Shown: positions 431 through 29,469 of the stretch, piece after piece
How positions within the stretch are numbered: the stretch's first letter is position 1
Layout: every line of letters starts with the position of its first letter
From: Mycolicibacterium sp. YH-1
GTDB lineage: Bacteria > Actinomycetota > Actinomycetes > Mycobacteriales > Mycobacteriaceae
Reading direction: 5' to 3'
Assembly: GCF_022557175.1 (NCBI RefSeq)
Contig: NZ_CP092915.1
Coordinates: 6,448,001 to 6,512,000 of the forward strand
Length of the DNA: 64,000 nt
The notes under the pieces: generated by a model
Database searches by the model: none
What the model was told of the DNA's origin: nothing
What the model saw: the letters and a program-made list of their open reading frames with translations, nothing else
Program-made: the position numbers and the translations under genes

Positions 431-482
431 ATTCCGGTGAGCTGAACACCGCATTGCGACATTGGAGAGCGGGGCTGATGAT
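431..482 (+). promoter_or_regulatory. Palindromic box plus promoter for the 560 gene
   Basis: Positions 431-447 read ATTCCGGTGAGCTGAAC, a palindrome-like 17-mer of the RTTCC-N7-TGAAC type found at five other promoters in the window. A TTG-type -35 (TTGCGA, 454-459) follows after 6 bp. A -10-like GATGAT (477-482) follows after a 17-bp spacer. The same box also faces the divergent DUF35 gene, where TGCCGC (419-424) and TACGCT (396-401) on the minus strand have a 17-bp spacer. The first base of the box deviates from the GTTCC consensus. Confidence 0.5.
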
Positions 483-559
483 CGCGGTTAGTCGCATGAG
501 CTCGCCCTAGTCGGTCGCTCGCCGTACCGGCTTTCGAACCCCACTATAGAGGACTATCG

Positions 560-2746
560 ATGAAGACGGTGTACACCAGCTGCCGAATCTGCACGTCGAA
601 CTGCGGCACGAAGGTGACCGTGGACGACAATCGGGTGACACACATCGGCCCTGATAAGGAGAACCCATACACCTGGCGGGACTTCTGCCGCAAGGGCCAG
701 ACAGCCGACGAAAGCCTGCACCATCCCCTGCGCCTGACATCACCGATGCGCCGCGACGGTGACCGATACGTCGAGGCCACCTGGGACGAAGCGATCACGG
801 ACATCGCCCAACGAATGAGAGCGATTCGGGACCAGTACGGCCCCCAGGCCATAGGCATGTACATCGGCAATCCGGCGTACTACGCCTCTGCAAACGGCTT
901 CTTTTCCACAGCACTGCTTGACGGCATCGGCACTCACAACCGCTTCAGCGCAATATCTCTCGATACCAACAGCTTTCACCGCGTCAATCACGAGATGTAC
1001 GGAACTCCCGCCCTCGGCCTAATGCCGGATGTCGACGACTGCAAGTGCTTTCTTCTGATCGGAATGAACCCGGCGGCGAGCGGTGTCGGGTGGGGTTGGA
1101 CGGTTCCCAACGGATGGCGCCGCATACTCGCGGCCAAAGACAAGGGCGCTGATCTGATAGTCGTCGATCCCCAGCGCACTGCGAGTGCCGACAAGGCCAC
1201 CACTCATCTTGCCGTTCGCCCACGAGGGGACTGGGCGCTGCTGCTGGGCCTTCTCAAGGTCATCTTCGACAACAGGTGGGAAGACCAGGAGGCGTGCGCT
1301 CTGCTAAAGGATCTCGACGTCGTCCAAGATCTCGCCGCCGACGCGGACCTGGAGGATCTGGCTCTTCGCTGTGGCATCAAAAGCGATGTGATCACCGATG
1401 TGGCCCGTCGCTTCGCACTTGCGGAAACCGCCTTCTGCGAGGCCCATACCGGGGTTTCGCAGCATCCCACGGGAACCGTCGGTGAATGGTTATCGCATGT
1501 CCTCAACTTCGTCACGGGCAGGGTCGACAAGCCCGGTGGCAAGCGGTTCGAGAGGGGGTACGTTGACACCATCGCTCTCTGGGAACTTTTGGCGCCGGCT
1601 CAGGAGCAGGTATCCCGGGTGCGCGGACTGCCGGCTACGGCGGGCTACCTGCCGGCTGCGGAATTGACCAATGAGATCACCGTTCCGGGCGACGGTCAGA
1701 TCCGTGCGCTGATCATCAACGCGGGTAATCCCGTTGTGTCGGCACCCGGGGGTAATCAATTGGACTCCGCTCTCGCGTCGCTTGACCTCCTCGTAGCTGT
1801 AGACATTATGCAGCGGGAGAGTCACCGCCACGCGCACTGGCTGATTCCAGACACTCATTTCCTGGAGCGGGAGGACCTGTTCGTGCTCATCTCGCAATTT
1901 CAGGACATGCCGTTCTTGCAGTTCGCGCAGCGAGCTGTCGAGCCACATCCCAATGTGCGCGAGGCTTGGCGCTTTTTTACAGACCTAGCGCTGGCGATGA
2001 AGGTGCCCATGTTCGGCAAGCGCGGGTTCAACTCGGTAATCAAGGCCTCCCGACTATTGGCGAAGCTGACGGGTCGCCCACTCCTCGAATTCAATCCCCG
2101 GTGGCTGTTCCGGGCACTCGTCATCAGCGGTCGGAGGCTCAAGTGGAAGGACATTCTGGCTCACGAACACGGGTGGCTGTACGGCGAGAAGGAGTTCGGC
2201 AACTTCGTGAAAAGGGCTCTTAGGAACCCTGATCGGCTGGTTCATGCAGCACCGCCAGCGTTCGTCGCCGAGGCACGCCGCCTGTTAGCGATCCCGCCAG
2301 CCGACAATGCCCCCGACACGTTCACACTGGTCGGCCTCCGCCACAGTCACACGATGAACACCTGGCTGAGCGACCTGCCGGGCATACGGACCAAGAAGAA
2401 GTACAACGAAGCCGCCATCCATCCCGCCGATGCCCACCGCCTCGGCGTGAGCACCGGCGATATCGTCCGAATCACCTCGCCTGTGGGCTCGATTGAGCTG
2501 CCCGCCTGCGTGACCGACGGTGTCCGGTGCGGCGTCGTGGTGGTTGAACAGGGTTGGGGTTCTAGAGTTTTCGACCCCAGAGGAACCGCAGAGCCTGTGT
2601 CATTCGGGGTGAACCGGAATGTCTTGGTCGATACTGAGGAGCTTGATCCGCTCTCACAGATGCCGGCACTCAACTCGCAGGCCGTGACGATCGAACGCGT
2701 CGAATCAGCGCAGGGTGCCGTAGGCGGGAACGAAGATGAAGCGTAG
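560..2746 (+). CDS. Molybdopterin-dependent oxidoreductase, DMSO reductase superfamily
   Basis: The 728-aa product has an N-terminal 4Fe-4S motif with C8, C11, C15 and C43, the bis-MGD oxidoreductase domain (residues about 50-500) and a C-terminal molydopterin-dinucleotide-binding domain (about 590-720, with HSHTMNTWLS and NEAAIHPADAHRLG). The ATG at 560 has a GAGG 8 bp upstream. There is no Tat signal, so it should act in the cytoplasm. At the position where formate dehydrogenase-like enzymes carry the Mo ligand (RV[C/U]H), this protein reads RVNH (N143), which is odd. It starts a run with an SDR and an aldehyde dehydrogenase on the same strand, so it probably belongs to the oxidation pathway. 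The exact substrate cannot be inferred. Confidence 0.85.
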   Translation: MKTVYTSCRICTSNCGTKVTVDDNRVTHIGPDKENPYTWRDFCRKGQTADESLHHPLRLTSPMRRDGDRYVEATWDEAITDIAQRMRAIRDQYGPQAIGMYIGNPAYYASANGFFSTALLDGIGTHNRFSAISLDTNSFHRVNHEMYGTPALGLMPDVDDCKCFLLIGMNPAASGVGWGWTVPNGWRRILAAKDKGADLIVVDPQRTASADKATTHLAVRPRGDWALLLGLLKVIFDNRWEDQEACALLKDLDVVQDLAADADLEDLALRCGIKSDVITDVARRFALAETAFCEAHTGVSQHPTGTVGEWLSHVLNFVTGRVDKPGGKRFERGYVDTIALWELLAPAQEQVSRVRGLPATAGYLPAAELTNEITVPGDGQIRALIINAGNPVVSAPGGNQLDSALASLDLLVAVDIMQRESHRHAHWLIPDTHFLEREDLFVLISQFQDMPFLQFAQRAVEPHPNVREAWRFFTDLALAMKVPMFGKRGFNSVIKASRLLAKLTGRPLLEFNPRWLFRALVISGRRLKWKDILAHEHGWLYGEKEFGNFVKRALRNPDRLVHAAPPAFVAEARRLLAIPPADNAPDTFTLVGLRHSHTMNTWLSDLPGIRTKKKYNEAAIHPADAHRLGVSTGDIVRITSPVGSIELPACVTDGVRCGVVVVEQGWGSRVFDPRGTAEPVSFGVNRNVLVDTEELDPLSQMPALNSQAVTIERVESAQGAVGGNEDEA

Positions 2747-2909
2747 ACGCCTGCAGGCCGACGCCGGAAGCCGTTAACCCTTCTGCGGATTGATGCCGAC
2801 GACAGGCAATGGGACTGAGGCACGCAGGCGTGGTCGCGGAATGGCGAAATATTCCGGTCCGCTGAATTGCGGATTGCGAGATACGTGCGCAGTGGCAGAC
2901 GATCTCCGA

Positions 2910-3764
2910 ATGAGTCCCCTTCTCCCGTGGTCAAAATCGTCGCGCCCCTCGCCGATTGTCCCGCGCGTCGCGCTGGTCACCGGTGGCGGTAGCGGTATGG
3001 GGCAACTCGCGGTGTGGCGATTGGCGGAGAGCGGTGCGGCAGTCGGGGCGCTGGATATCAACTCGGCGGGCCTAGACGAGACGGCCGCTCGCTTCCCCGG
3101 ACTGATCAGACCGATCACCGTCGACGTCACCGACGAGGCTGCAGTCAACGACGCCGTCGATGAACTCGAAACCCACCTCGGTCCCATCGACCGAGTTATG
3201 AACGCCGCGGGTGTCGCTCAGACCGTGCCGTTGCTAGACCACCCTCCTGCACAGATCAAGCGGATGATGACCATCAACTACTTCGGGACGGTCAACGTCA
3301 GCGCTGCTACGCTGCCGCGGATGCTGGAACGACGTCGCGGGCAACTGATCAACTTCGCGTCGTTGCTCGGACTCGTCGGAGCTCCGAATCTCGGCGCATA
3401 TGTTGCCAGCAAGGCGGCGGTCATCGCGTACACCGAGGCCCTGTGGTCGGAGAATAGGGACTGCGGGGTACGGATCATGTGCTACTGCCCGCCAGCGGTC
3501 AGCACACCCATGTTCTCCGACTTCATTCCCGAAGCAGCCCAGCGAAAGACAGCTCAGAGGCTCCGCCTCGCTATCACACCTGAGCGTGCTCTCGACTCAC
3601 TCGAGAGTGCCACCGGAGACAAGGGATTTCTCATCGTTCCGACTGCGGTCGCACAAATCATGTGGTGGATGCGGCGACAAAGCCCCGGACTGATGGGCAA
3701 GCTGATGAGCATCTCGACGAACATGCAGGGCGGCGATCACCCAGCCGTCGGGCCGCGCGCCTAA
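2910..3764 (+). CDS. Short-chain dehydrogenase/reductase (SDR)
   Basis: This is a classical SDR of about 284 aa from the chosen ATG. It shows the cofactor motif TGGGSGMG, NAAG, a catalytic Ser in INFASLLG and the YVASK active-site pair. It should oxidise or reduce an alcohol/ketone with NAD(P)(H). The frame is open from 2790, and ATGs at 2790 and 2841 would add a low-complexity leader. 2910 was chosen because it brings the first beta strand (PRVALVTGG) near the N-terminus, but no strong ribosome binding site decides this. The gene ends 6 bp before the aldehyde dehydrogenase start, so the two are probably cotranscribed. Confidence 0.85.
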   Translation: MSPLLPWSKSSRPSPIVPRVALVTGGGSGMGQLAVWRLAESGAAVGALDINSAGLDETAARFPGLIRPITVDVTDEAAVNDAVDELETHLGPIDRVMNAAGVAQTVPLLDHPPAQIKRMMTINYFGTVNVSAATLPRMLERRRGQLINFASLLGLVGAPNLGAYVASKAAVIAYTEALWSENRDCGVRIMCYCPPAVSTPMFSDFIPEAAQRKTAQRLRLAITPERALDSLESATGDKGFLIVPTAVAQIMWWMRRQSPGLMGKLMSISTNMQGGDHPAVGPRA

Positions 3765-5582: not shown

Positions 5583-6701
5583 CTACCCCGCGAATAGATT
5601 TCTGGCCAGCCGCGTTCGATGCCAAGCGGTGTCACCTGCCAGCACCTGATTGAGCCGGGCGCGCTTGAGGTAGAGGTGCGTGTCGTGCTCCCAGGTGAAT
5701 CCGATGCCACCGTGCATCTGCAGAGCGGCTGATGCCACTCGAATGTAACCGTCGTTGCAATGCAGTGCGGCAATGGACACCGCATCGGAATCACCCGCCG
5801 GATACGTTCCAAAGCCGGCCACAGCGGATTCCGACGCGACTCTCGCCATCTCCGTGTCGACCACCATCGACGCGCACCGGTGCTTTACCGCCTGGAACGT
5901 GCCGATTGGACGACCGAATTGCACACGCTCCTTGGCGTATTCGGCAGTCATCTCCGTCAACCGTTCGGCGCCCCCGAAGCTGTCACAAGCCAGTGCCGCG
6001 GCGAAGCGGTTCAGCAGCGCGCTGAGGACTGGGCCGGCCTCCCCAACAGCGCCCAGTGCAGCGTCGGCCGTTACCTCGACACCATCCAGACGCACATCGC
6101 ACAGCCTGCGAGTTTGATCGACACTCGGCGTGATCCGAATCTCGGCTTGCGACGGTTCTACGGCGAACAGCGAGAGAGCACCGCTTTCCTCACGAGCGGC
6201 GACGATGAGAAGGTCAGCGGTATGGGCGTCAAGAACGAAAGCGGCTCTCCCGGTGAGGTGATAAGCGCCGCGAAGCGGTCTGGCGACGACACCGGGTTCA
6301 GCGGCACCCTGCGCCCCCGAGTCGGTGAACGCTACCGCTGCCTTCGCCTCTCCCGAAGCCAGGCGAGGCAGCCACTCGGCGCGCTGCTGCGCCGAGCCGG
6401 CCAGCATCAGTGCACCGATCCCCAGGGTGACCGTTGACAGCAGAGGCGTCGGTGTCACGTGACGCCCGAGTTCTGCAAGTACGACGCCGAACTCGACGAA
6501 CGAACCGCCCGCACCGCCGAATTGCTCGGGCACCGCAATTCCGCACCAACCGAGTTCGCTCAGCCGAGACCACAACACCGGATCGTGGCCGACGGGGTCG
6601 TCCAAGAGCTCTCTGACCTTGGTCGAGGACGAACCTTCGGCAAGGACGTCCCGCACGATCTCCCTGAGATCGTCGAGATCCACCACCGGGCTGTATACCA
6701 C
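5583..6701 (-). CDS. Acyl-CoA dehydrogenase, beta-type subunit (FadE-like)
   Basis: The product is 372 aa from a GTG at 6701, chosen because AAGGAGT (6708-6714) lies 6 bp upstream. The C-terminal acyl-CoA dehydrogenase domain is clear (FGRPIGTFQAVKHRCA, LQMHGGIGFTWEH). The N-terminal half is divergent and lacks the usual FAD/substrate-loop signatures seen in its neighbour. In steroid-degrading actinobacteria such pairs form alpha2beta2 heterotetramers, and the adjacent 6713-7951 gene is the probable partner (inference). It is the last gene of the minus-strand operon starting at 11619. Confidence 0.88.
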   Translation of the reverse strand: MVYSPVVDLDDLREIVRDVLAEGSSSTKVRELLDDPVGHDPVLWSRLSELGWCGIAVPEQFGGAGGSFVEFGVVLAELGRHVTPTPLLSTVTLGIGALMLAGSAQQRAEWLPRLASGEAKAAVAFTDSGAQGAAEPGVVARPLRGAYHLTGRAAFVLDAHTADLLIVAAREESGALSLFAVEPSQAEIRITPSVDQTRRLCDVRLDGVEVTADAALGAVGEAGPVLSALLNRFAAALACDSFGGAERLTEMTAEYAKERVQFGRPIGTFQAVKHRCASMVVDTEMARVASESAVAGFGTYPAGDSDAVSIAALHCNDGYIRVASAALQMHGGIGFTWEHDTHLYLKRARLNQVLAGDTAWHRTRLARNLFAG

Positions 6702-6712
6702 TTCGATACTCC

Positions 6713-7951
6713 TTAGTCCATCAGTGGGTCTCGGGGTAGACCGAGCACCTTCTCGGCGATCAGACTTCGCTGAATCTCGTTGGTTCCGGCGGCGATCGTC
6801 CACTGCCACGACATGATGTAGTCACGCATCCAGTAGCCCGACTCCCACCCGACCGATAGCGGCAGATCGCGTAACAGCTGCGCTTCCAGGCCGCCACAGC
6901 GGACGGCGAACTCCATCAAGCGTTGCAACAGCTCGCTGTAGTAAAGCTTGATGATCGAGGCCTCTGGGCCGACACCGCCGTGCCGCACGAGATTCTCGAC
7001 CATCCGACCGCAAATCAGACGAAGAACCTCCACGTCCGCGTGAAGTTGAGCGAGCTCCTGAGCGACGGAGTCGCGGGTTTCAGCGCCCGCGCGGCGAGCC
7101 GTCTCAACGAGTCGAGGAACGATTCCCCGCAACCGCTCGCTCAGCTCCACCATCGACAGGCCGCGCTCGGCTACCAACGTGCTCTGCGCAATCCGCCAGC
7201 CGTCGTTCTCCTCACCTATGCGGTCCGTAACCGGGATCCGAACATCAGTAAGGAAGATCTCGCAGAACTCGTCGTCACCGGTCGCCTGCCGAATTGGTCT
7301 GACTTCGACTCCGGCGCTGCGCATATCGAGAAGGAAGTACGAAATTCCCTTGCGTTTGGGCGCCGCGGCGTCTGTTCGTGCCAATAGGATGCACCAATCG
7401 GCGAACTCCGCGTAGCTCGACCAGATCTTCTGCCCGTTGACGACGTACACATCACCATCGCGCACGGCGCGCGTCTGCAAACTGGCGAGATCGGAACCGG
7501 AGTTGGGCTCGGAGAATCCTTGGCACCAGATCTCGCCGTTCAGGATTCCCGGCAGGTGGCGTTGCTTCTGCGTCTCGTTACCCGCATGAAGCAACGTCGC
7601 AGCTGCGTGATTGAGTGACACGAAGTAGAGCGCGAGCCGTGGCGCGTCGGCCTTTGCCAACTCTTCGTACAGTACGACCTGTTGCGCGAGGGAGAATTCG
7701 GCACCACCCCACTGCTTCGGCCAGTGCGCTACGGCGTAACCCACCTCCCTCTGCTCCTCGATCCACCACCGCTGAAATTCGAGGTAGTCCTGCTTGCCGA
7801 CGCCTGTCTGTCGCACTCGCCAATCGGACGGCACGTGCTTGGACAACCAATCGCGCACCTCCAGACGAAAGGCATCGAGATCGCTGAGAGCATCCTCGGC
7901 GTCACCCGTCTGCGTCAACTCGCACCTTCCCAGCTCCATATCCTGCGTCAA
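6713..7951 (-). CDS. Acyl-CoA dehydrogenase, alpha-type subunit (FadE-like)
   Basis: This 412-aa acyl-CoA dehydrogenase has the QGFSEPNSGSDLASL flavin/substrate motif, the NGQKIWSS strand and the C-terminal AAGTNEIQRS nucleotide-binding motif. It should introduce an alpha,beta double bond into an acyl-CoA, probably with the downstream beta-type subunit (11 bp between genes). The TTG at 7951 overlaps the preceding stop (TTGA). An ATG at 7939 is an alternative start and gives 408 aa. The paired domain order is mirrored in the fused gene at 15699-18029. Confidence 0.9.
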   Translation of the reverse strand: MTQDMELGRCELTQTGDAEDALSDLDAFRLEVRDWLSKHVPSDWRVRQTGVGKQDYLEFQRWWIEEQREVGYAVAHWPKQWGGAEFSLAQQVVLYEELAKADAPRLALYFVSLNHAAATLLHAGNETQKQRHLPGILNGEIWCQGFSEPNSGSDLASLQTRAVRDGDVYVVNGQKIWSSYAEFADWCILLARTDAAAPKRKGISYFLLDMRSAGVEVRPIRQATGDDEFCEIFLTDVRIPVTDRIGEENDGWRIAQSTLVAERGLSMVELSERLRGIVPRLVETARRAGAETRDSVAQELAQLHADVEVLRLICGRMVENLVRHGGVGPEASIIKLYYSELLQRLMEFAVRCGGLEAQLLRDLPLSVGWESGYWMRDYIMSWQWTIAAGTNEIQRSLIAEKVLGLPRDPLMD

Positions 7952-9081
7952 CTCGCGGAAGTCACAGGTGGCGCAGACACGTGCGGGAAGAGATCTGTGA
8001 ACGATCCTTGTGTAATACGCTGACGCACTTCTGGTTTGACATCATCAAACAACTTATGAAGCGTTTCCTGGGTGTGACCGAACGTCCCTTCCAGGTGCGG
8101 GTAGTCGCTGCCGAACATGACATTCTGGTAGCCCATCGCCCACAACGCAGCCGGCGCCGTTTCGTCGTGCTGGAAGCTCGCATAGACCTGCCTGTAGAGG
8201 ATCTCCTTCGGTAACATCGAGAGTTGAGGTCGCACGAATGTGCCGTGCTGGCGGTACGCCTCATTCATGCGGTCGCCGATGAAGGGAACCCAACTGGCCC
8301 CGCCCTCGGAGACGAGGACCTTCAGCGTCGGATGCCGGTCGAGCGCGCCGCCGGCTACCAGCTTCATCGCGGCATACTGACCGCCGTACGTGGTTTGGAC
8401 GTAGTTGAGCACTGCACCGCCCGGACCTCTGAACGCACCTCCTTGATCATCACCGTCAGTGCCGATGTGAAAGCCGATGACCATCCCGGTTTCCTCAGCC
8501 GCAGCCCACAAGGGCTCCCAGGAGTCATCGTTCCAGTCCCTCGTCCCAGGCGGATTTCCAGTCGTCAAGGACACCAGGTGGAGGCCGATCTCGGCCGCGT
8601 GATACAGCTCGGCAACAGCGTCTTCAGGAGTCAACAACGGCATCAATGCCGCCGGGACCAATCGATCCGGCGCATGCGACTGGATCTCGGAGACCAACCA
8701 CTCGTTCTCGGCACGAGCAGCATCCCTGATCAGTTGCGGGTCTTCAATCAGGTTGCACCAGAGTCCGATCGACTGGTACATCACCTCACCCCAGACACCC
8801 TCATTGTCGAGGTCCTTGAGGCGGAGGCCGATATCGCGAGCCCCAGGTGGCCTGTGACTCATCTCCATGATCGTTTCGCCCGTCGAACTCTTGGCAGTCT
8901 CGATCTTCGGCAGCGCACGAGTGAAGCTCTTGCCGTCGACGGTCACCCGTTCCTCGGTCTCGCTGAGCCGCTCAGTGCGTGGCATCCGGTCGGCCTGCTT
9001 CTTCGGCAGGATCTGATGCCAGAGGTCGTCCGGCTCGAGAAAGTGTGAGTCGCCGGAGTGCGTCCAGATCTTCTCAGTCAT
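7948..9081 (-). CDS. Amidohydrolase family 2 (ACMSD-like) metal-dependent hydrolase
   Basis: This 377-aa TIM-barrel amidohydrolase starts at the ATG at 9081, which has GGAG 8 bp upstream; an in-frame ATG at 9099 lacks this. Metal-site motifs are present: DSHFLEP (H13), GFHIG near residue 195 and FGSDYPHLEG near residue 330. Members of this family decarboxylate or hydrolyse ring-cleavage and cyclic acid products; several in actinobacteria act on CoA-linked or terpenoid intermediates. It overlaps the next gene by 4 bp and is one of three paralogues in the operon. Confidence 0.87.
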   Translation of the reverse strand: MTEKIWTHSGDSHFLEPDDLWHQILPKKQADRMPRTERLSETEERVTVDGKSFTRALPKIETAKSSTGETIMEMSHRPPGARDIGLRLKDLDNEGVWGEVMYQSIGLWCNLIEDPQLIRDAARAENEWLVSEIQSHAPDRLVPAALMPLLTPEDAVAELYHAAEIGLHLVSLTTGNPPGTRDWNDDSWEPLWAAAEETGMVIGFHIGTDGDDQGGAFRGPGGAVLNYVQTTYGGQYAAMKLVAGGALDRHPTLKVLVSEGGASWVPFIGDRMNEAYRQHGTFVRPQLSMLPKEILYRQVYASFQHDETAPAALWAMGYQNVMFGSDYPHLEGTFGHTQETLHKLFDDVKPEVRQRITQGSFTDLFPHVSAPPVTSAS

Positions 9082-9114
9082 AATCTTGCTCCGTTTCATT
9101 TCACCGCTCGCAGA

Positions 9115-9432
9115 TCAATCCGATGCAGGAAGTGCTTTGGCTTGCTTCTGGGGAAGTCGGTCACCGTTGACCGCCAGCGCCCCGGCTCCGCCCTTTGTGC
9201 AGAGCACTTCCAAGCCGCTACTCGCATCTTCGTATCGCTTGCCGATGATTGTTCCCTCGTCATCCGCCTCGAGCGTCAACGCGGTATCGGCTTCTTCGCC
9301 CTGCAGCAGCATCGGCGCACCGCCGCAACAGATCGTGGCGGGTTGCGCTGGCGATCGCACGACGATGACCGCGGTATCGCATACAGCGCTACGTAAACGC
9401 GTTCCGGGTTTCAAGTTGTTCTGGTCGGTCAA
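9115..9432 (-). CDS. Conserved small protein of unknown function between amidohydrolases
   Basis: The product is a 105-aa acidic protein with a possible two-strand repeat (RSAVCDTAVIVVR; CCGGAPMLL), without membrane segment or signal peptide. The TTG start overlaps the stop of the upstream amidohydrolase-like gene as TTGA, typical of translational coupling, and the gene lies inside the operon. Similar short proteins are familiar next to acyl-CoA genes in actinobacteria, but I do not know a function. A partner or chaperone role for the flanking amidohydrolases is only inference. Confidence 0.7.
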   Translation of the reverse strand: MTDQNNLKPGTRLRSAVCDTAVIVVRSPAQPATICCGGAPMLLQGEEADTALTLEADDEGTIIGKRYEDASSGLEVLCTKGGAGALAVNGDRLPQKQAKALPASD

Positions 9433-10364
9433 GGCATCAGTCCGCTCGCGTTGGTGGCGAAGAACTTCTCGGTCAAGGTCGGTCCGAGTTGTTGAGGAAG
9501 GTCGGTGTACTGATTGGCTGGATCGACGTCATCGGTTGGGGATACGATGCTCGATCCGTAGATGTAGACGTCGTCGAGCCCATATCGTTCGAAGTAGGTG
9601 TGCACCGGTTCCCACGCAGCGCACGTGACCCGGACGTTCCTTTCTATGTACTGCGAGGGCCTGAGACTCAGAGTCTTGGAAAGAGTCTTGGAGAACCAGT
9701 TCTTGGCGACGCCGTCGAGATTCTCAGCCATCGGACCGATCCAGCCAGCCCCCATCTGCACGCAACCGACCATGAGATCTGGGTGCCGATCGAACACGCC
9801 GCCGTAGACCATGGGCGTCAGATAGTTCTTCGCCATCACATGGCCCTGAGCCAACGAAAACAGCTCGGCTCCATCACCTTCGACGTCCCACGTCAGCGAC
9901 CGGAACATGTTCAGTCGCGACTCTGCGCGAAGCACAATCGGAACACCGCTGGAGGCGAATACCTGCCACAACGGATCCACATCGGGATGGCCGGGGGAGA
10001 TCCCGCCGGGGGGGATTCCTGCAGGCACACACACCGCGCGCACCCCGGCGTCGATCACCCTCTCGGCCTCTGCGATCGCATCGGTGATCGAATCGGTGTC
10101 GATCACCGCCACCGGGCGCAGACGACTGCTGATCTTCGCGATATCAGCACACCAATCGTTGTGGGCCTTGAGTTTAGTCAGTCCCGATTCTGCTGACCCG
10201 CCGTCGGTTTCCAACGGACCAGCAGGAAAGAGCAGAGCCCGATCCACCCCAGAGGAATCCATGAGATCCAACCGACGCGACATGTCAGCGGCGGTATCCG
10301 CACCACTGTCCACTCTCGAGTCGGCATCCAGAATCCTGCCCGTCACCGCATCCACAACCGCCAT
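9429..10364 (-). CDS. Amidohydrolase-like protein lacking metal ligands (probable pseudoenzyme)
   Basis: The product is 311 aa from the ATG at 10364, with AAAGG upstream. It is clearly paralogous to the 10414-11619 product along its length (WEPVHTYFERYGLDDVYIYG versus WEPVDVYIERDGLEDVYALG), but the active site is gone. DSH is DSR (R17), the second-site LH is LR (VLRAES) and the TDYPH motif is replaced by SSIVSP. The reading frame is intact, so it is probably not decayed DNA. It may be a structural or regulatory partner of an active paralogue. Confidence 0.85.
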   Translation of the reverse strand: MAVVDAVTGRILDADSRVDSGADTAADMSRRLDLMDSSGVDRALLFPAGPLETDGGSAESGLTKLKAHNDWCADIAKISSRLRPVAVIDTDSITDAIAEAERVIDAGVRAVCVPAGIPPGGISPGHPDVDPLWQVFASSGVPIVLRAESRLNMFRSLTWDVEGDGAELFSLAQGHVMAKNYLTPMVYGGVFDRHPDLMVGCVQMGAGWIGPMAENLDGVAKNWFSKTLSKTLSLRPSQYIERNVRVTCAAWEPVHTYFERYGLDDVYIYGSSIVSPTDDVDPANQYTDLPQQLGPTLTEKFFATNASGLMP

Positions 10365-10413
10365 TGCAAAACAACCTTTCACCGACTTGAACGACCAGAA
10401 ATTCCACGCTGAC

Positions 10414-11619: not shown

Positions 11620-11651
11620 CACACGCTCCTTCACACCGTTGGACTATCGCG

Positions 11652-11704
11652 ACACTAAAGCCGCCGCCGCCACCACCCCAACGAACAGTTCAATCACACG
11701 GAAC
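11652..11704 (-). promoter_or_regulatory. Palindromic box plus promoter of the amidohydrolase operon
   Basis: Read on the minus strand: box GTTCCGTGTGATTGAAC (11688-11704), 6 bp, -35 TTGGGG (11676-11681), 18-bp spacer, -10 TAGTGT (11652-11657). The start codon is at 11619. The 17-bp box is identical to the one at 28479-28495, and flanking bases are also shared. Confidence 0.65.
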
Positions 11705-12691: not shown

Positions 12692-12743
12692 GTTCCATAG
12701 GGCTGAACTAGGCCGTTGCTTAGGGACGCGACCGACATAGCCT
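12692..12743 (+). promoter_or_regulatory. Palindromic box plus promoter of the crotonase-like genes
   Basis: Box GTTCCATAGGGCTGAAC (12692-12708) is followed after 7 bp by TTGCTT (12716-12721), a 16-bp spacer and -10 TAGCCT (12738-12743). The distance from box to -10 is 29 bp, as at the other sites. The ATG at 12782 follows about 32 bp after the expected transcript start. Confidence 0.55.
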
Positions 12744-18029: not shown

Positions 18030-18331
18030 CGAGCCTGATACGCACCGTCGTCGACGGACTCGTCCACTCGTCGATGACGGCGCTGGCCACAACCTGCGAT
18101 CGCATGGCGAATGCGCTGTGTCCCATGGACACTGCAGACCAAGCCCGTGCACTCGCGCAGCAAACGGCCCTGCGTGACGCCGCAGCGAACGCGGCGCCAG
18201 ACAGTCCCACTACCGACGCCGCGCACACCACTGGCCCGATCTACGGCCGCGGGATGCCCAAGCACACCTGTTCAGCCCAACAGAACGCAAACCCGACAGC
18301 ACACACCTGCAGATTGCACACTGCCACCTGA
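18026..18331 (+). CDS. Hypothetical ORF overlapping the fused ACAD stop
   Basis: This is a 101-aa frame starting with an ATGA overlap with the preceding gene. It has no recognisable domain, and the C-terminal half (after about residue 60) is rich in Thr, Ala and His and looks non-coding. The overlap is the only support. The remainder of the 18030-18418 interval shows only a weak copy of the palindromic box. Confidence 0.25.
   Translation: MTSLIRTVVDGLVHSSMTALATTCDRMANALCPMDTADQARALAQQTALRDAAANAAPDSPTTDAAHTTGPIYGRGMPKHTCSAQQNANPTAHTCRLHTAT
18270..18286. promoter_or_regulatory. Weak copy of the palindromic box upstream of the ferredoxin reductase
   Basis: GTTCAGCCCAACAGAAC keeps the GTTC-N9-GAAC core, but no matching -35 or -10 is found at the standard spacing on either strand. 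It lies 132 bp before the start at 18419. Confidence 0.25.
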
Positions 18332-20530: not shown

Positions 20531-22066
20531 TCAGGATTCGTCGGATCCGCTCGTCAAGTCCGTCAGCATGGCGACGAGCCGTCGATGGTCGATCTTCATC
20601 GACGCACCGCGCGGCAGTTCATCGACAATGTAGACCCGCGCGGGGACCTCGTACGGCGTGAGTGTTTTCCGGCAGAACTCCCGCAGTTCCTCGGCTGCGA
20701 CCGACGTACGAGCACGCAGTTCGACTGCACCAACGGGAATCTGGCCAAGCCTGTCATCGGGCAGTCCTGCGACCGCAGCATCACTGACCGCCGGATGACT
20801 TCGTAGCGAACGGACGACTGTGTCCGGCGAGATCTTGAATCCGCCGCGGATGATCACGCCATCGGCGCGACCGTCGATGTAGAGGAATCCGTCTTCGTCG
20901 ATATGAGCCAGGTCGCTCGTGGTGATCCACTCATCTGACGGTGCACCGGACTGTGGTGAGGCCACCTGCAAAAGGCCGGTTTCGCCGGCGGGAGGCAACT
21001 CGCCTGCGGCGTCAACGACTCGCAGGCGCACACCGGGAAACGCTCGCCCCACGCTCCCCTTCTTCTCCAACCACCGTTCCCGGAAGTCGTTCAGCGTCCA
21101 CCCCGCCACGGCGCCGGAGAACTCGGTCGCGCCGTAGACGACCAGGATCGGAATTCCGAACCGCTCCCGGAAGGCATCGACAAGCGTTGGTTCGATCGGG
21201 CTGGCTCCGCAGTTGATCGCGCGGATGCTGGCTAGGTCATCGGGCGGGATATCGGAGTCGAGCACAACCTGAATCGCCGCCGGAGGGAGGCCGACCAACC
21301 CGGGTCGGTGATTCTTCACCGCGGCGTGCCAGTCGGCAAGGTTGAACCGCTTGAACAGAACAAGACGCCGGGCAGACACCAGCGCTTGCAGGAGGCCCCA
21401 CATACCGCTGATGTGGACGAGGGGCCATGTCAGAATCGCCGCCGATCCCGCGAACGGCGCCTGCGCGGAACCGTCTGACCGGTTGTTGTGCTGCAGCGCA
21501 GCACAGAGCGATGCCTCCAACTGTGCGCGTGACAGCGGAATTCTCTTGGGCGGCCCGGTACTTCCGCTGGTCAGCATCTCGATAACGACTTCGCCGAGAT
21601 CGTCGCCGCTCTCGGCGCTCTCGGCGCTCGCGGCGTGTCGCCTCGCGCCTTGCGCGGCCATCGTCACCGCATCACCGTCAACGCTCCACCCCGTCGCGCC
21701 CAATTTCGACACGGCAGCCGCGAATTCCGTGCTGCACCAGTCTTCTTCGCCGGCCAGAACGTAGTCGACCGCAGTGGCTTCGAGATCCGCAGCGAGGCGA
21801 TGAGGCGGCTGCAGCGGGCTCAGAGTGACCAGGGTTCGCGAACCCCTGATGATCGCGATGAGAGCAGCCACGGACTCGGTGCGGTTCGCCAGTACCACGG
21901 CAACCCGACCACCCGCTGCGCACCCGGCGATGGTCAATTCGGTGTCGATGCGCTCGCTCAGCGATTTGACATAACCCCATGGCAACCACTGCCCATCGCT
22001 CTGCAGCATGGGTGCGGACTCGTCGATATCCCACAACCGCGCTATTGCTCCGCGAAGGCTCATCAT
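20531..22066 (-). CDS. AMP-forming acyl-CoA synthetase/ligase
   Basis: This 511-aa ANL enzyme starts at the ATG at 22066 with AAGGA 8 bp upstream; a GTG at 22099 overlapping the preceding stop is an alternative. Motifs: LTSGSTGPPKR, VVYGATEFSG, YIDGRADGVIIRGG and a C-terminal catalytic Lys in ASMKIDHRRL. It should form an acyl-CoA from an unidentified acid. It is the last gene of a minus-strand run with the cyclase and membrane protein upstream. Confidence 0.87.
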   Translation of the reverse strand: MMSLRGAIARLWDIDESAPMLQSDGQWLPWGYVKSLSERIDTELTIAGCAAGGRVAVVLANRTESVAALIAIIRGSRTLVTLSPLQPPHRLAADLEATAVDYVLAGEEDWCSTEFAAAVSKLGATGWSVDGDAVTMAAQGARRHAASAESAESGDDLGEVVIEMLTSGSTGPPKRIPLSRAQLEASLCAALQHNNRSDGSAQAPFAGSAAILTWPLVHISGMWGLLQALVSARRLVLFKRFNLADWHAAVKNHRPGLVGLPPAAIQVVLDSDIPPDDLASIRAINCGASPIEPTLVDAFRERFGIPILVVYGATEFSGAVAGWTLNDFRERWLEKKGSVGRAFPGVRLRVVDAAGELPPAGETGLLQVASPQSGAPSDEWITTSDLAHIDEDGFLYIDGRADGVIIRGGFKISPDTVVRSLRSHPAVSDAAVAGLPDDRLGQIPVGAVELRARTSVAAEELREFCRKTLTPYEVPARVYIVDELPRGASMKIDHRRLVAMLTDLTSGSDES

Positions 22067-22095
22067 CGTGTGCGTCCTTGAGTGTTGATCGTCGA

Positions 22096-22803
22096 TCACG
22101 GCTGTGGCGTCGGACCGGGTGGTATTTGCTCCGGGCCTGGAAGCGTCGGCATCACCGCGGTGGGACGGTGCTCGACCGGGAACTCGGTCGAGGACGGTCC
22201 GGCACCTTCGGCAGGCGACGACTGTTCGAGCGCCTTCTGCTGCCGGATCGCCTCATCGCGATCCGCCTTCTCGTCGAGGTCGGCCAATGCCTGCTGTAGG
22301 TCCTGGTCGATTTGATCGGGCGGCGATAAGCCCTGAACCAACTGCGCCAAGTCGGGAGCGACCACTTCCTGCGCCGTCGAACCCACATCGGTCGGCACCG
22401 CCGGTTGACCGTCGGGAACCTCGGCGACGGCGACCCGCGGCGGTTGCAGAGCCGGGATCGGGTTGGCACCGGGAATGTCGCCGAGGACAACCTCGACTCC
22501 TCGCTGGTGCTCCGGGCCGGACCGTTGGAGCCACAAGTCACCCGACGGGTGGTCGAAGGACAGCGCACCCGCCACCCCTGCGCCGGCAACGAATGTCAGG
22601 ACTGGCATGAGAACAAATGCCGGCTTGCGAGCGACGCTTTCGGCCCGGCGTCGCAGCAGACTCACCATCGCTCGCAGTTCGGCGGTGCGTCGCGGCCCTA
22701 CTGCCGCGTGACGAGCCCGATTGGTTCGGTCGTTGGACCGTGGGCCCCTTCTCGCCAGGACCGAAGGTGCCGTCATCGACCGACCCCCGGTGCCGCCCCT
22801 CAT
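22096..22803 (-). CDS. Single-pass membrane protein with Pro/Gln-rich C-terminus
   Basis: The product is 235 aa from the ATG at 22803, which overlaps the adenylate cyclase stop by 4 bp. A basic N-terminus (about residues 10-55) precedes one transmembrane helix (PAFVLMPVLTFVAGAGVAGA, about 60-80), then an extracytoplasmic tail rich in Pro, Asp and Gln. No known domain was recognised. Coupling to the cyclase suggests a membrane partner or a sensor for it, which is inference. Confidence 0.7.
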   Translation of the reverse strand: MRGGTGGRSMTAPSVLARRGPRSNDRTNRARHAAVGPRRTAELRAMVSLLRRRAESVARKPAFVLMPVLTFVAGAGVAGALSFDHPSGDLWLQRSGPEHQRGVEVVLGDIPGANPIPALQPPRVAVAEVPDGQPAVPTDVGSTAQEVVAPDLAQLVQGLSPPDQIDQDLQQALADLDEKADRDEAIRQQKALEQSSPAEGAGPSSTEFPVEHRPTAVMPTLPGPEQIPPGPTPQP

Positions 22804-23891
22804 GAGCCCCGGCGGTGCGCGAGGAACAGATTCATCTCTACCGGCACCCCTTTCAGGTGTCTCATGCCCGCCGAAGACCATGCGAGCGATTCCTCGCAGC
22901 CAACTGCGTCGCGGGCAGATTCAGTCACCAGGACGCCGCCTGGAGGGGCAACTCCGGTCACCCGGTTGGCAATGTTCACAGGACTCCCGAACCAGTCCCC
23001 TGCGCGGCTCACGGCGGGGCCCGCCGCCACACCCACTCGCAACCGAGGCAGCCCGGCTGCCGCTGCAGAGTCGATGAGATCCAGCATGGCGTTGATCAAC
23101 GGCGCCGCTTCGTGGGATACGAGCATCACCGCGTCGCCGATGGTCTTAACGAATCGCACTGGTTCATCGACGATTTCGTACGTCAGGTCCGCGAGTCGAG
23201 CCGCGAGGCGGGCCAAATCCTCAGGTGGAAGCGCCTCTCCCAGCCGGGTGAATCCGGCGAGGTCGGCGAAGGCCACAGCTACCTGGCGCGCCCCCGGAAG
23301 TTGACCCGCGGTCCTCTCAGCGGCATCGATACCTTCCGATTCGTACATACGGCGGAACTCCAGCAGCAGCAGGCCTTCAACTACCAGTAGCACCGGCGGT
23401 ATTGATTCCTTCGCACGCGCCTCGATTACCTCCGCCAACTCGACTTCAGTCGCTCCCGGGGCGAAGAACATCCTGTATGACGTGTCGCGCATCATCGACG
23501 CGAAGCGCCGCAGACTATCCGTCAGGACTCTAATGGCTGCAACGGCCTCTTCCACGTCGAGACCGGCGTCGAGGAAGTACCTCGTGCGCGCCGCCGCCTC
23601 CGCGTCAACCTTGGAGAAGACGGTCGCGTCCGGGTCATCCACGCGTGGTAATCCGACGGCGCGTTGAAGGCGCTCAAGCACACTCACATCGATATTCATC
23701 GACTCGGCAATCTCGCGCGTTGATACGTATTCGCCATCGTCGCCCATGATCCGATATGTGGGAAGGAGCATCGGTGCCGAAGACGCGCGAATCTGTTCCT
23801 CGGTGAACTCGCGGTCGACCAACCACGCCACAAGCTCATCACGATCCCGCTGCGCCTCGTTAGCTCCCAGATCTGGTACCACGATCAGCAC
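22800..23891 (-). CDS. Class III adenylate cyclase with N-terminal regulatory domain
   Basis: The 363-aa product resembles mycobacterial Rv2212/Rv1264-type cyclases. It has an N-terminal regulatory domain (about 1-195) and a catalytic domain (about 200-363). Metal-binding Asp residues are in FADLAGFT (D210) and IGDAVM (D253). The adenine-specifying Lys is K249, and transition-state residues are N307 and R310 in VNIANR. It should make cAMP from ATP in the cytoplasm. Its tight coupling with a membrane protein and an acyl-CoA synthetase suggests cAMP signalling tied to this catabolic locus. Confidence 0.9.
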   Translation of the reverse strand: MLIVVPDLGANEAQRDRDELVAWLVDREFTEEQIRASSAPMLLPTYRIMGDDGEYVSTREIAESMNIDVSVLERLQRAVGLPRVDDPDATVFSKVDAEAAARTRYFLDAGLDVEEAVAAIRVLTDSLRRFASMMRDTSYRMFFAPGATEVELAEVIEARAKESIPPVLLVVEGLLLLEFRRMYESEGIDAAERTAGQLPGARQVAVAFADLAGFTRLGEALPPEDLARLAARLADLTYEIVDEPVRFVKTIGDAVMLVSHEAAPLINAMLDLIDSAAAAGLPRLRVGVAAGPAVSRAGDWFGSPVNIANRVTGVAPPGGVLVTESARDAVGCEESLAWSSAGMRHLKGVPVEMNLFLAHRRGS

Positions 23892-23952
23892 CCTTCGCTC
23901 CGGCGGTTTACGGCCTCCGACTCAGTGCTCAAACATCCTGCACCGATGGCCA

Positions 23953-24750
23953 TCAACGCCCGGTGAACTGAGCAGGACGCCGCTCACGAAACGCCTTTAT
24001 ACCTTCCTTGAAGTCCTGGCCGTGCAGAGATAGTTGAACAAGAGCCGCCTCCTCGGACATTGACGTCGCAAGATCCGAGGTGACGTGCTTGTTCAGCATC
24101 GACTTCGTAAGTTCAAGGGAGAATGTCGGTCCTGCAGCAAGTTCTTCGGCGAGGGCATAGGACGCGGTTTGCAGTTCGAGGTCGCCGTGGGTCTCCGTAA
24201 CCAATCCCCACTCCAACGCCTCCGCTGCCTTGACAGCGCGGCCGAGCAACAACAGCTGTTTTGCTCTCGCGAGTCCGATCAACCTCGGCAAAAGGAATGT
24301 CGCACCACTGTCAGCGGTGAAGCCCCGTTCTCGGAAGGGCTCCTGGAAGCTCGCCGATTCGCCGGCGATGACGAAATCAGTAGCCAATGCCAGGTGGAGC
24401 CCTACCCCGGCCGCCCGACCCTGGACCGCTGCGACAGTCGGCAACGAGCAGTCCCAGATCGCCTGCACCATTCGGTGTGCCGCCGAATTGAGCATACGCA
24501 TGGTGGCCCCGGTCCTGGGCCGCTCTTCGGCTGCATTGACCGAGAACAGGTCCGCACCACCGCAGAAGTGCGTACCTTCGGCACGGATGAGGACCGCCCT
24601 GACCGCGTCGTTCGTAACGGCGGCCGCCATGGCATCTGCAATCCAGGACATATCCGCGACGGTCAAAGTGTTTGCCTTCGCCCCCCGAGCAAGGGTCAAC
24701 ACAAGCACTGACCCGCGCTGTTCGGAGCGAATCGCGATGCCGTCACTCAC
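23953..24750 (-). CDS. Enoyl-CoA hydratase/isomerase
   Basis: This 265-aa crotonase has the oxyanion-hole motifs HFCGGADLFSV and QGRAAGVGLHLA and a typical C-terminal AKQLLLLGRAVKAAEALEWGLV region. The GTG start overlaps the stop of the double hot-dog hydratase (GTGA), so both are translated from one message driven by the promoter at 26107-26159. It should act on an enoyl-CoA made by the acyl-CoA dehydrogenases. Confidence 0.9.
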   Translation of the reverse strand: MSDGIAIRSEQRGSVLVLTLARGAKANTLTVADMSWIADAMAAAVTNDAVRAVLIRAEGTHFCGGADLFSVNAAEERPRTGATMRMLNSAAHRMVQAIWDCSLPTVAAVQGRAAGVGLHLALATDFVIAGESASFQEPFRERGFTADSGATFLLPRLIGLARAKQLLLLGRAVKAAEALEWGLVTETHGDLELQTASYALAEELAAGPTFSLELTKSMLNKHVTSDLATSMSEEAALVQLSLHGQDFKEGIKAFRERRPAQFTGR

Positions 24751-26018
24751 GGCCGCGACTCCCGCAACAACTCGCCATGACGCTCCATCATCGCAACTGC
24801 ACGACGTTGAAGTTCGACAGGTACTTCGGGGAGTGCCGCCGCTCCGTGCTCACGACTCGGGAGGCTGATTGTGGCCTCGCCACGTGCGGTCTCCTCGCCC
24901 CGTTGATTCGTGGCGGCGAACTCGACATCGACGAGGGAGCTGTCGCCTTCGTGCCGCTTACGGATCACCTTGCCGCGGAGAATCTGAAAATCGCCTTGGT
25001 AGTTGAACTTCCGCACCTCATCGTGCTGACGCACAATCCAGGCACTGTCCCCCATCCAATCTGTGAGCAGGTGATGCATCCAGCACTCGCGGAGCACTCC
25101 GTAGTCGTACGCCCTCGGGTTTCCGATAGCCTGGGCCCATTCACTGTCCCAATGCACCCGCTGCGCGACATCCGGCACTCCGAAGGAGTTCTTGATGTAG
25201 AACGGTGCGATTCGCTGACGGTTCTGATAGGCCAGCCTTCCGGTCTTCAATCCGTACGGTACGAATCCGTAGCCGCCGGCATGAAAGACGACCATGTCGG
25301 TGGTCGTCAGCGGTCCCTTGGCCATAGGTCCAAACTCATCGCCCTCGCAGACGTCCTCCCAGTAGCGCGGCTCCCGGCCTCTGACCTTCTCATCCGCGTA
25401 TATCGCGTCCATGGCCGCGATGTCCTCGTCGGAGTAGGACGGTGCAGGAATCTCGCTGTACTTCCCCTTTTCCCGCGCCTTCTTGCGTTCAGTCAAAATC
25501 ATCAGACGCCGGTATACACCGACCACTTCGGCCCGTTGGTTGATCTTCACCTCACGGTCGACCTTGATGACCGATCGTCCTGCGAACTCGGAAGGCTTCT
25601 CCGTGACCGATTCGAGCGCCGTGAAGCTATACAACGTGTCACCGGCATAGACGGGGCGGAACCAGTCCCATGTCGCTCCAGACACGAACGCGTGGATACC
25701 GCGATAGCTACCGCCGCGCAACTCCCTCGGCACTTTGTCACCCAGGAGCGGCGAGTTCAGAACAGCGGCCATGATCTGCGGAGCGATCTGCGCACCCCAC
25801 CGGCTACTCGCGCCATGTACGGGATCGCAGTACAGCGGGTTGTCATCTCCGTAGCCATGCGCGAAATTGCGGATCGCCTCAGCAGTTGCGGTACCCAACA
25901 GCTCCTGGGTGCCCATCGCGCTATCGTGCCCGAGCGCTAGGCGGTCCTTCTCGATGTCGGCGTCGTCGATAGTGGCGATCGTCGCCTTCTCGAACTCTTC
26001 GGACTGGGTCTGCGTCAT
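24747..26018 (-). CDS. Double hot-dog (MaoC/FAS1-like) acyl-CoA hydratase
   Basis: The product is 423 aa from the ATG at 26018, which has GAGAGGG upstream. The N-terminal hot-dog domain carries a hydratase-like YGDDNPLYCDP segment near residue 65, with Tyr where MaoC enzymes often have His. The C-terminal domain carries WMHHLLTDWMGD. It probably hydrates an enoyl-CoA that is bulky or branched, as MaoC-type double-domain hydratases do in steroid and terpenoid pathways. It is the first gene of a two-gene operon with the crotonase. Confidence 0.82.
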   Translation of the reverse strand: MTQTQSEEFEKATIATIDDADIEKDRLALGHDSAMGTQELLGTATAEAIRNFAHGYGDDNPLYCDPVHGASSRWGAQIAPQIMAAVLNSPLLGDKVPRELRGGSYRGIHAFVSGATWDWFRPVYAGDTLYSFTALESVTEKPSEFAGRSVIKVDREVKINQRAEVVGVYRRLMILTERKKAREKGKYSEIPAPSYSDEDIAAMDAIYADEKVRGREPRYWEDVCEGDEFGPMAKGPLTTTDMVVFHAGGYGFVPYGLKTGRLAYQNRQRIAPFYIKNSFGVPDVAQRVHWDSEWAQAIGNPRAYDYGVLRECWMHHLLTDWMGDSAWIVRQHDEVRKFNYQGDFQILRGKVIRKRHEGDSSLVDVEFAATNQRGEETARGEATISLPSREHGAAALPEVPVELQRRAVAMMERHGELLRESRP

Positions 26019-26106
26019 ATCGCGCCCTCTCTCATCTGCAATGCGTCGACTGTTCGCCACCGGCGTCGAATACACTGGTACATCAGCAAGTTTGGTGATC
26101 AACGTG

Positions 26107-26159
26107 AGCGTATTGCGCCAACTGCTGCCGTTCCAACGCCGAGTTCAGAGCATCGGAAC
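26107..26159 (-). promoter_or_regulatory. Palindromic box plus promoter of the hydratase/crotonase operon
   Basis: On the minus strand: box GTTCCGATGCTCTGAAC (26143-26159), 6 bp, -35 TTGGAA (26131-26136), 18-bp spacer, -10 TACGCT (26107-26112). Spacing matches the 11652 and 28443 promoters exactly. The start codon lies at 26018. Confidence 0.6.
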
Positions 26160-27740: not shown

Positions 27741-27847
27741 AAATTGGTCCTTCCAATGATCCAACGGCGGATGATTCGACTCTGCGGATCGCCTCTCAAT
27801 GGCATCGCAACAAGTCGAGGTCGAGAAATGCGCACCGCGACATACCG

Positions 27848-28442: not shown

Positions 28443-28495
28443 ACATTAGGATCCTTGCCACGACAACCTCAACGGACCGTTCAATCACACGGAAC
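28443..28495 (-). promoter_or_regulatory. Palindromic box plus promoter in the PPOX/TetR intergenic region
   Basis: On the minus strand: box GTTCCGTGTGATTGAAC (28479-28495), 6 bp, -35 TTGAGG (28467-28472), 18-bp spacer, -10 TAATGT (28443-28448). With the 11688 copy it shares a 32-bp stretch with only 3 mismatches. The box lies between the PPOX gene (minus) and the TetR gene (plus) and may serve both. Confidence 0.65.
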
Positions 28496-28622
28496 AACCC
28501 CCAACATGTCGGAGGCAGACTCATTACGGTTAGCCTGCTTAGACATGTAACCTCTGATCCACGTTCGGTTGCGAGATGCCAGATGGTGGGTTGCTGGTCA
28601 TCGGTCAGAGTTCGATAAAGCT

Positions 28623-29288
28623 ATGGCACGCCTACCCGGAAGCAAGAATCACGTGGTCTCAGAACCAGAAGAGCCGAACGGCCAGGAAAGCCAGCGCGAA
28701 CGCATCTATCGGGCGGCGGTCGCGTCCTTTGACGCGCGGGGAATCAACCGCGCGAGCATGGAGAAAGTCGCTCAGCAGGCGGGCGTGTCGCGACAGACGG
28801 TCTACTTCTACTTTCCTGACAAGGTATCGCTCATCGCCGAGGTCGTGCTCAGGCATGCCCGGGAGTGGCTGGCGGAGATCAGCGAGAAGCTAGAAGGTCG
28901 GCCCGGCGGCGTACAGCCGATTGTGGAGGCCATGGTCCTGTGCGTCGACGGCGCACTACGTGACACGTACCTCGCCCTGCTTCTTCGGCCGACATCGGAC
29001 AAATTGGCCACCGCGCTGGCTTCCATGCCTGCGGTTCGAGAAGCTCAGGAAGCTCTGTGGTACCCCCTCTTTCGTCGTGCACGCGAAAGTGGCGAACTAC
29101 GCACGGATTTGGCCGACGATGAGCTCATGGCATGGATCACGCTCGTCGGGTTGGCAATCATGACCCATGGCAGTGAACGTGGCCTCGATAACTCCACCAA
29201 AGTCGAATCGTTGCTGAATCAGTTCATGGTGCCCAGCCTGCACAGACAAGCCGAGAACGTGGTGTCCCTCGATCCAACCGAGGATTGA
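28623..29288 (+). CDS. TetR-family transcriptional regulator
   Basis: The product is 221 aa from the ATG at 28623 (a TTG at 28569 extends the frame). The N-terminal helix-turn-helix is clear (RASMEKVAQQAGVSRQTVYF followed by YFPDKVSL), followed by an all-helical ligand domain. It is divergent from the PPOX gene and flanked by boxes at 28479-28495 and 29418-29434. It is a candidate regulator of the palindromic-box regulon, although the box position upstream of the -35 is unusual for a simple repressor. Confidence 0.88.
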   Translation: MARLPGSKNHVVSEPEEPNGQESQRERIYRAAVASFDARGINRASMEKVAQQAGVSRQTVYFYFPDKVSLIAEVVLRHAREWLAEISEKLEGRPGGVQPIVEAMVLCVDGALRDTYLALLLRPTSDKLATALASMPAVREAQEALWYPLFRRARESGELRTDLADDELMAWITLVGLAIMTHGSERGLDNSTKVESLLNQFMVPSLHRQAENVVSLDPTED

Positions 29289-29417
29289 ACCGCCGAGGGC
29301 TTGAACTCGTCAGCAGCTCCCCTAGTGCTGATTTGCGCGTCCGAAATCGACTCTGCTGCCACGTATCAGGACCGTTTCGGCAACTCGCCGATGTATCGTC
29401 ACCTGCGCACGCGGTCC

Positions 29418-29469
29418 GTTCCAATTGTCGGAACTAGAGGTTGGCCTGAAACTGCTCGCGCCCTAGTCT
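29418..29469 (+). promoter_or_regulatory. Palindromic box plus promoter of the GMC/P450/ALDH operon
   Basis: Box GTTCCAATTGTCGGAAC (29418-29434) has perfect 5-bp arms. It is followed after 6 bp by TTGGCC (29441-29446), a 17-bp spacer and TAGTCT (29464-29469). The start codon is at 29566. The rest of the 277-bp gap after the TetR gene shows nothing else. Confidence 0.65.

Follow-up and report, generated by a model that had tools for sequence, protein, structure and literature searches.

Which protein reads a 17-bp palindrome that recurs in front of catabolic genes of Mycolicibacterium sp. YH-1, and how many promoters does it serve? The stretch analysed, here called the window, comprises 64,000 nucleotides (bases 6448001-6512000 of a contig of 7,267,399 bases, in a genome of 7.27 Mb); positions are window coordinates unless stated otherwise. 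The palindrome, RTTCC-N7-KGAAC (the box), is in our judgement likely to be the operator of an IclR-family factor, most probably the IclR protein encoded left of the window in the same catabolic island. From its arrangement in the sequence, this protein would act as an activator at about -50 of at least eleven promoters.

Distribution of the box and its spacing to the promoter elements

Within the window the pattern matches ten times, at nine places, where shuffled sequences lead one to expect 0.54 matches (the maximum of 100 shuffles was 3). Six of these 17-mers had been listed in the initial annotation, and all six are exact, at 431 (+), 11688 (-), 12692 (+), 26143 (-), 28479 (-) and 29418 (both strands). 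The promoter geometry described there holds as well: a TTG starts 6 bp past the box in five of the six and 7 bp past it in one, and a -10-like hexamer follows after 29-30 intervening bases, with the form TANNNT in five cases and GATGAT at 431. The -35 is weak, and little of it beyond the TTG is conserved. Three places were absent from that annotation. The box at 57151 (-) carries the TTG; those at 53938 (+) and 59137 (-) have none at the spacing and were rejected as members of the regulon, the latter lying inside a pyruvate-carboxylase-like gene.

The same combination was sought in the whole genome. The box alone gives 61 matches at 48 distinct places, and 11 of the 48 fall within a 68-kb region (genome 6437125-6505167) for which the rate elsewhere predicts 0.35 (Poisson p ~2e-13). 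The box followed by N6-7 and TTG has ten matches in the genome, every one of them inside the 68 kb, and the reversed-pattern control has none. A box equally frequent inside unrelated genes, which would have spoken against a regulon, is thus not what the genome scan finds for box plus TTG. Stop-to-stop frames span 197-921 codons at 22 of the 37 background places, which were the ones examined, and 74-442 codons at the 11 cluster sites, and these ranges overlap. Three of the box-plus-TTG sites stand left of the window, where they precede the genes for a P450/FAD-oxidase pair, an acyl-CoA dehydrogenase and a class III CoA-transferase. With the one-mismatch box at 2851 added to the ten, the promoters number at least eleven; the regulon proposed earlier stands, and its count of six does not.

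The box at 2851 is informative on geometry. An in-frame ATG at 2910 falls where transcription from its promoter is predicted to start, and the same arrangement is present in the related strain P9-22; from this spacing and conservation, 2910 is probably the true start of the short-chain dehydrogenase. If the transcript is leaderless, the box centre lies at about -51. The value near -50 given earlier is supported, and activation as the better guess fits the position of the box upstream of the -35. A possible weak box at 18270 is of uncertain membership: its 17-mer is identical in P9-22, where no TTG occurs at the spacing.

A search model, R1, was trained on the eleven YH-1 sites among others and scored 150 of 2257 first-look candidates in YH-1 and 150 of 2079 in P9-22. 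Among those scored, YH-1 gave 14 matches (the 11 training sites at E<=0.0012, the remaining three at 0.5-1.5) and P9-22 gave 11, nine of them on the island contig and one of these nine outside the training set. Because R1 was trained on these sites and part of the candidates was scored, the conclusion is limited: the scored candidates include no additional site that scores as high.

Conservation and operator type

Through the LAL protein of the window we reached a syntenic island in the plant endophyte Mycolicibacterium sp. P9-22 (contig NZ_NPKP01000016.1). Between about -25 kb and +54.6 kb it is collinear, though interrupted by gaps, at 73-83% DNA identity. Nine promoter pairs were compared, anchored on the box and ungapped; -5597 was omitted because it lies in a segment apparently duplicated only in YH-1, and 57151 because it lies outside the synteny. 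The arms are identical at 87/90 positions and the 7-bp spacers at 46/63 (p = 3e-5 for arms versus spacers), compared with 121/270 in the 30 bp upstream and 231/405 in the 45 bp downstream, flank figures that the ungapped anchoring lowers. The columns 7-9 bp after the box are identical in 9/9 pairs. Eight of these pairs have TTG there; the pair of 12692, for which P9-22 keeps the box and has TTT instead of TTG, has GTT. The P9-22 copies of 431 (TTTCC) and 2851 are each one base off the pattern.

These comparisons bear on whether the repeats might be copies left by a mobile element or by duplication, with no regulatory role. The box at -5597 does lie in an apparently duplicated segment of YH-1. 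Beyond the arms and the TTG, though, the sites differ both in sequence and in the genes they serve, and the arms are kept between the species while the spacers change. For the set as a whole this explanation is already contradicted, and we find it hardly credible. The box set is also rare. Among 148 genomes of the genus (YH-1 included) no other carries such a set, the others having 0-4 matches (88/148 with at least one), and with the stricter GTTCC/TGAAC form 66 of 401 family genomes have a match, none beyond the islands exceeding two.

The initial annotation held the box to be of a new kind. This is probably not so, as the layout matches a published operator motif of the IclR family, the GTT-11-AAC subgroup (GTTYCRYW3RYGRAAC, 17 bp, 54 orthologous groups), which belongs to the group 1 operators of that family as given in Suvorova and Gelfand 2021 (PMC8222616). 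In 20 sites, TTCC (positions 2-5) and GAA (14-16) are invariant, G1 occurs in 15/20 and C17 in 18/20, and a purine at position 6 and a pyrimidine at 12 are present in 20/20. The box thus shares with the subgroup its 17-bp length, the GTTYC-N7-GRAAC layout, R6 and Y12, and R11 of the inner consensus is found in 16/20 sites. It differs at T13, at position 7 and in the centre, and in its near-fixed spacing to the -35. A close parallel is the site of GenR, the IclR regulator for 3-hydroxybenzoate/gentisate in C. glutamicum, given as ATTCC-N7(5)-GGAAT in Table 1 of the same survey (PMC8222616): site type, catabolic genes and actinobacterial host agree. Here, the outer base is mostly G and the island spans 68 kb with P450s, a molybdo-enzyme and CoA-ester enzymes.

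The scale of the system is a further difference. IclR members generally control themselves plus one or two adjacent operons, with regulogs of 1 to 55 COGs (PMC8222616), and the promoter count of the island exceeds what is general for the family. No publication on this island or box in mycobacteria was found by a literature search on titles and abstract openings. Judged by its sites, the system is a real and conserved regulon, a new and sizeable one of an already known kind, and its master is likely an IclR protein encoded beyond the window.

The candidate regulator and its rivals

The island IclR protein has 279 residues, in a family whose members have about 250, and both family domains, HTH_IclR at the N-terminus (PF09339, E 2e-16) and IclR at the C-terminus (PF01614, E 5e-35). 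Pfam searches covered part of the open reading frames in the block common to YH-1 and P9-22, and among those covered its gene is the only one of IclR type. At E<=1e-60 the protein occurs in 2/297 genomes of the genus, apparently both with the island. The two candidate binders of the initial annotation behave alike: the TetR protein at 28569 (E<=1e-25) is likewise found in 2/297 genomes, both with the island, and the LAL protein at 33929-36559 (above 90% identity) in 2/396, its closest homologue being that of P9-22 (91%). As all three are confined to two genomes at these strict thresholds, co-occurrence does not separate them.

More distant homologues do distinguish IclR from LAL. We compared the 1.5-kb flanks of 29 IclR loci (38-45% identity, the best of the matches in 175/401 genomes) with those of 28 LAL loci (31-45%). 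Exact boxes occur at 11/29 IclR loci (11 places) and at 0/28 LAL loci, and none of the eleven is farther than about 150 bp from one end or the other of the stretch that matched IclR. Allowing at most one mismatch gives 34 places in 23/29 IclR loci versus 15 places in 13/28 LAL loci.

The richest case is plasmid pRhX5 of R. erythropolis X5 (NZ_CP044283.1), which encodes an IclR homologue 45.8% identical to that of the island, with a nearly identical recognition helix (PKSTTHRLLQIL in the island protein, PKSTAHRLLKTL in the homologue). The 30.6 kb examined hold six exact boxes. Four stand 74-159 bp upstream of the starts of ring-hydroxylating dioxygenase beta and alpha, IclR and ABC transporter genes, a fifth 112 bp upstream of that of a Zn-dehydrogenase; the sixth (20305) is not upstream of any listed start. 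The boxed dioxygenase subunits are related to the pair at 40593-42476 in the window (alpha 52% identical to 41112-42476, beta 49% to 40593-41093). The two systems share the protein, the box and related dioxygenase genes; they differ in the TTG spacing, in the symmetric GGAAC right arm of the plasmid boxes and in a gene set otherwise unlike. The feature list of the 30.6 kb names no LAL or TetR.

The initial annotation had the LAL protein bind the box and activate the island. LAL proteins act as activators, and this LAL gene follows the boxed GMC-P450-aldehyde dehydrogenase genes. A precedent exists in C. glutamicum, where the LAL activator PcaO stands beside an IclR repressor (cited in PMC9582017). 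The flanks of the LAL homologues argue otherwise, as does the box layout, which is the published IclR type (PMC8222616). Eleven neighbourhoods of LAL homologues 39-45% identical (40 kb each, two of 20 kb) contain no exact box with TTG; 3/11 have a one-mismatch box with TTG. Two Rhodococcus plasmid LAL proteins of 38-40% identity are also without the box, and a catabolic cluster surrounds at least one of them. LAL is thus probably not the binder, and that it both binds the box and activates the island strikes us as very improbable; more probably it is itself controlled by the regulon. A search of these neighbourhoods for any palindromic dyad followed by TTG gave G/C-rich, codon-like noise, and the same search found the box in both islands.

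Several observations weigh against assigning the box to the island IclR as an activator, and we collect them here. No strong box stands upstream of its own gene in YH-1 or P9-22 (best scores 10.0 and -0.3, versus 17.2-24.3 for the sites), a count against it because family members usually autoregulate, which is a habit and not a strict criterion. Neither is there a strong box upstream of the window's dioxygenase operon (best score 0.5), the counterpart of which is boxed in pRhX5, and none of the exact pRhX5 boxes has a TTG at the Mycolicibacterium spacing. Among the IclR homologue loci, 18/29 lack an exact box; six of the eleven that have one come from one genus and the rest from three others, and their boxes are of the symmetric GGAAC form. 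Exact boxes without TTG occur in 3/11 LAL neighbourhoods. The four promoters with the element CTTGTCGGAT lack TANNNT. Inner consensus letters of the GTT-11-AAC motif also fail (Y7 in 7/20 sites, G13 in 3/20 with T13 in 17/20, a centre that is not A/T-rich); since each such letter is the majority choice when the sites of many factors are taken together, we treat them as non-defining, and the claim to exact subgroup membership is weakened accordingly. Lastly, the YH-1 genome offers 43 first-look candidates for IclR relatives, and one further IclR-like gene is found 38.5 kb to the left of the window (L024 ~892-1476; window -39108 to -38524). It falls beyond the shared block, and its matched part is 32% identical to the IclR of pRhX5.

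These further IclR-like genes bear on whether the box is bound by a regulator encoded elsewhere in the genome, of the IclR family or not, or by the TetR protein at 28569, the island IclR being singled out by proximity and homologue association. A palindrome of this size can also be a TetR operator, and this TetR, too, is found only in the two island genomes. No TetR homologues of comparable identity were found. At the one TetR homologue locus with an exact match (L160), the match is inside the TetR gene itself, and the shared block holds the single IclR-type gene noted above. We rate a different binder as rather improbable. A 5-N7-5 layout also suits LysR sites; the LysR gene at L024:8386-9294, some 31 kb to the left of the window and considered for this layout, lies outside the block shared with P9-22.

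Whether the island IclR would activate or repress is a separate matter. The family comprises repressors, activators and dual regulators (PMC8222616), and in the aromatic catabolism of R. opacus IclR repressors (CatR, PcaR) are found together with IclR activators (HbaR1, VanR1; PMC9582017). The box could thus be a repressor site released by an inducer. Its position argues for activation: it precedes a weak -35, at a distance that hardly varies, and leaves the proposed -35 and -10 uncovered. We regard a mainly repressing IclR as unlikely.

We propose that a dimer of the island IclR reads two inverted half-sites GTTC(C/A)G, 5 bp apart, and binds so that the centre of the site falls some 50 bp before the transcription start, with 6-7 bp between the site and the weak -35. 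Once an inducer derived from the degraded compound is present, the bound protein would recruit RNA polymerase and switch on the promoters, at least eleven in number and spread across 68 kb. The outputs would be P450s, the molybdo-enzyme, dehydrogenases, CoA-ester enzymes, amidohydrolases, the adenylate cyclase, LAL and an extra moaA for the cofactor of the molybdo-enzyme. Such a protein would coordinate far more promoters than is the norm in its family, cofactor supply included. More broadly, though on balance doubtful, the locus may be a rare and perhaps mobile catabolic island that brings along an IclR master activator dedicated to it, with control over at least eleven promoters of near-fixed geometry and of two types (TANNNT and CTTGTCGGAT...ACTGGGT), and downstream layers formed by LAL, the adenylate cyclase and a private moaA. 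The four CTTGTCGGAT sites resemble one another more than other sites do. For an uncharacterised mycobacterial degradation island, the result is a ready regulon map with a candidate regulator, and the clear spacing rule gives a handle for predicting target genes.

Genes of the island

The genes behind the boxes form one coherent catabolic set, as the initial annotation had suggested.

Table 1 Boxes and genes of the island (window coordinates unless stated; L023 coordinates belong to a stretch left of the window)
Feature	Position	Strand	Remarks
Island IclR protein	genome 6432602-6433441 (L023:4602-5441)	-	14.6-15.4 kb left of window start, within block shared with P9-22
Box ATTCCGGTGAGCTGAAC	431..447	+	TTG after 6 bp; -10-like GATGAT; upstream of molybdopterin oxidoreductase
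Molybdopterin oxidoreductase (formate-dehydrogenase-alpha-like superfamily)	560..2746	+	Pfam PF00384/PF01568/PF04879; putative target gene
Added box ATTCCGGTCCGCTGAAT, one mismatch	2851..2867	+	TTG after 6 bp; -10-like GACGAT; P9-22 equivalent 30564
Short-chain dehydrogenase	2910..3764	+	listed reading frame starts 2790; then aldehyde dehydrogenase 3771-5207
Candidate operon	5583..11634	-	three Amidohydro_2 proteins (10414, 9429, 7948), two acyl-CoA dehydrogenases (6713, 5583)
Box GTTCCGTGTGATTGAAC	11688..11704	-	-10 TAGTGT; faces leftward amidohydrolase/acyl-CoA dehydrogenase genes; P9-22 equivalent 39026
Box GTTCCATAGGGCTGAAC	12692..12708	+	TTG after 7 bp; -10 TAGCCT; upstream of crotonase reading frame; P9-22 equivalent 39939
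Possible weak box GTTCTGTTGGGCTGAAC, one mismatch	18270..18286	-	TTG after 8 bp in YH-1
Genes behind box 26143	20531..26102		FAS1_DH/MaoC-like, crotonase, adenylate cyclase, open reading frame without family match, CoA ligase
Adenylate cyclase with Ad_Cy_reg domain	22800..23891	-	PF16701 + PF00211; among beta-oxidation-like genes
Box GTTCCGATGCTCTGAAC	26143..26159	-	-10 TACGCT; faces 20531-26102; P9-22 equivalent 54161
Box GTTCCGTGTGATTGAAC	28479..28495	-	-10 TAATGT; faces PPOX 27848-28339 and aldehyde dehydrogenase 26235-27851; P9-22 equivalent 56470
TetR-family regulator	28569..29288	+	PF00440; binder candidate of the initial annotation
Box GTTCCAATTGTCGGAAC, both arms symmetric	29418..29434	+	-10 TAGTCT; faces 29500-36559; P9-22 equivalent 57412
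Genes behind box 29418	29500..36559		GMC oxidoreductase, P450, aldehyde dehydrogenase, LAL
LAL regulator (AAA + LuxR HTH)	33929..36559	+	PF13191 + PF00196
moaA (molybdenum cofactor synthesis)	55918..56976	-	PF06463 + PF04055; behind box 57151
Box GTTCCGTCAGGCTGAAC with CTTGTCGGAT...AACTGGGT element	57151..57167	-	upstream of second moaA copy

The top-scoring solved relatives of the molybdopterin oxidoreductase are formate dehydrogenases. The moaA gene is a second copy in this genome, 77% identical to the other at 1.06 Mb; at E<=1e-20 there are two matches in YH-1 and one in P9-22, where it lies elsewhere in the genome. Its place behind box 57151 suggests that the extra copy supplies cofactor to the molybdo-enzyme. 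The extent of the operon facing box 11688, as drawn from the sequence, is a prediction. An mce-type transport operon (MlaE and MlaD proteins), which has no strong box upstream, and the dioxygenase pair lie within 40593-52901 of the same island.

The crotonase behind box 12692 is read in two overlapping frames, at 12716-13393 and at 13302-13997. Either frame matches a portion of the family, and a frameshift or a sequence error may be the cause. For a P450 left of the window (L023:9241-10524), the best-scoring solved relative is P450terp, the substrate of which is terpineol; this likeness hints at a terpenoid substrate and is a lead only. Also left of the window, two AveC-like genes of the spirocyclase family (L023:7845-8963 and L023:13135-14253) appear duplicated in YH-1 together with the neighbouring promoter region, and both segments align to a single segment of P9-22. 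Two boxes are preceded by weaker second ones, GTTCCG-N5-TTGACC, at L023:9074-9090 and L023:14363-14379 (genome 6437074 and 6442363), which begin 51 and 40 bp ahead of them. The first of these weaker boxes is kept in P9-22 at about 50 bp, and both may serve the divergent AveC-like genes.

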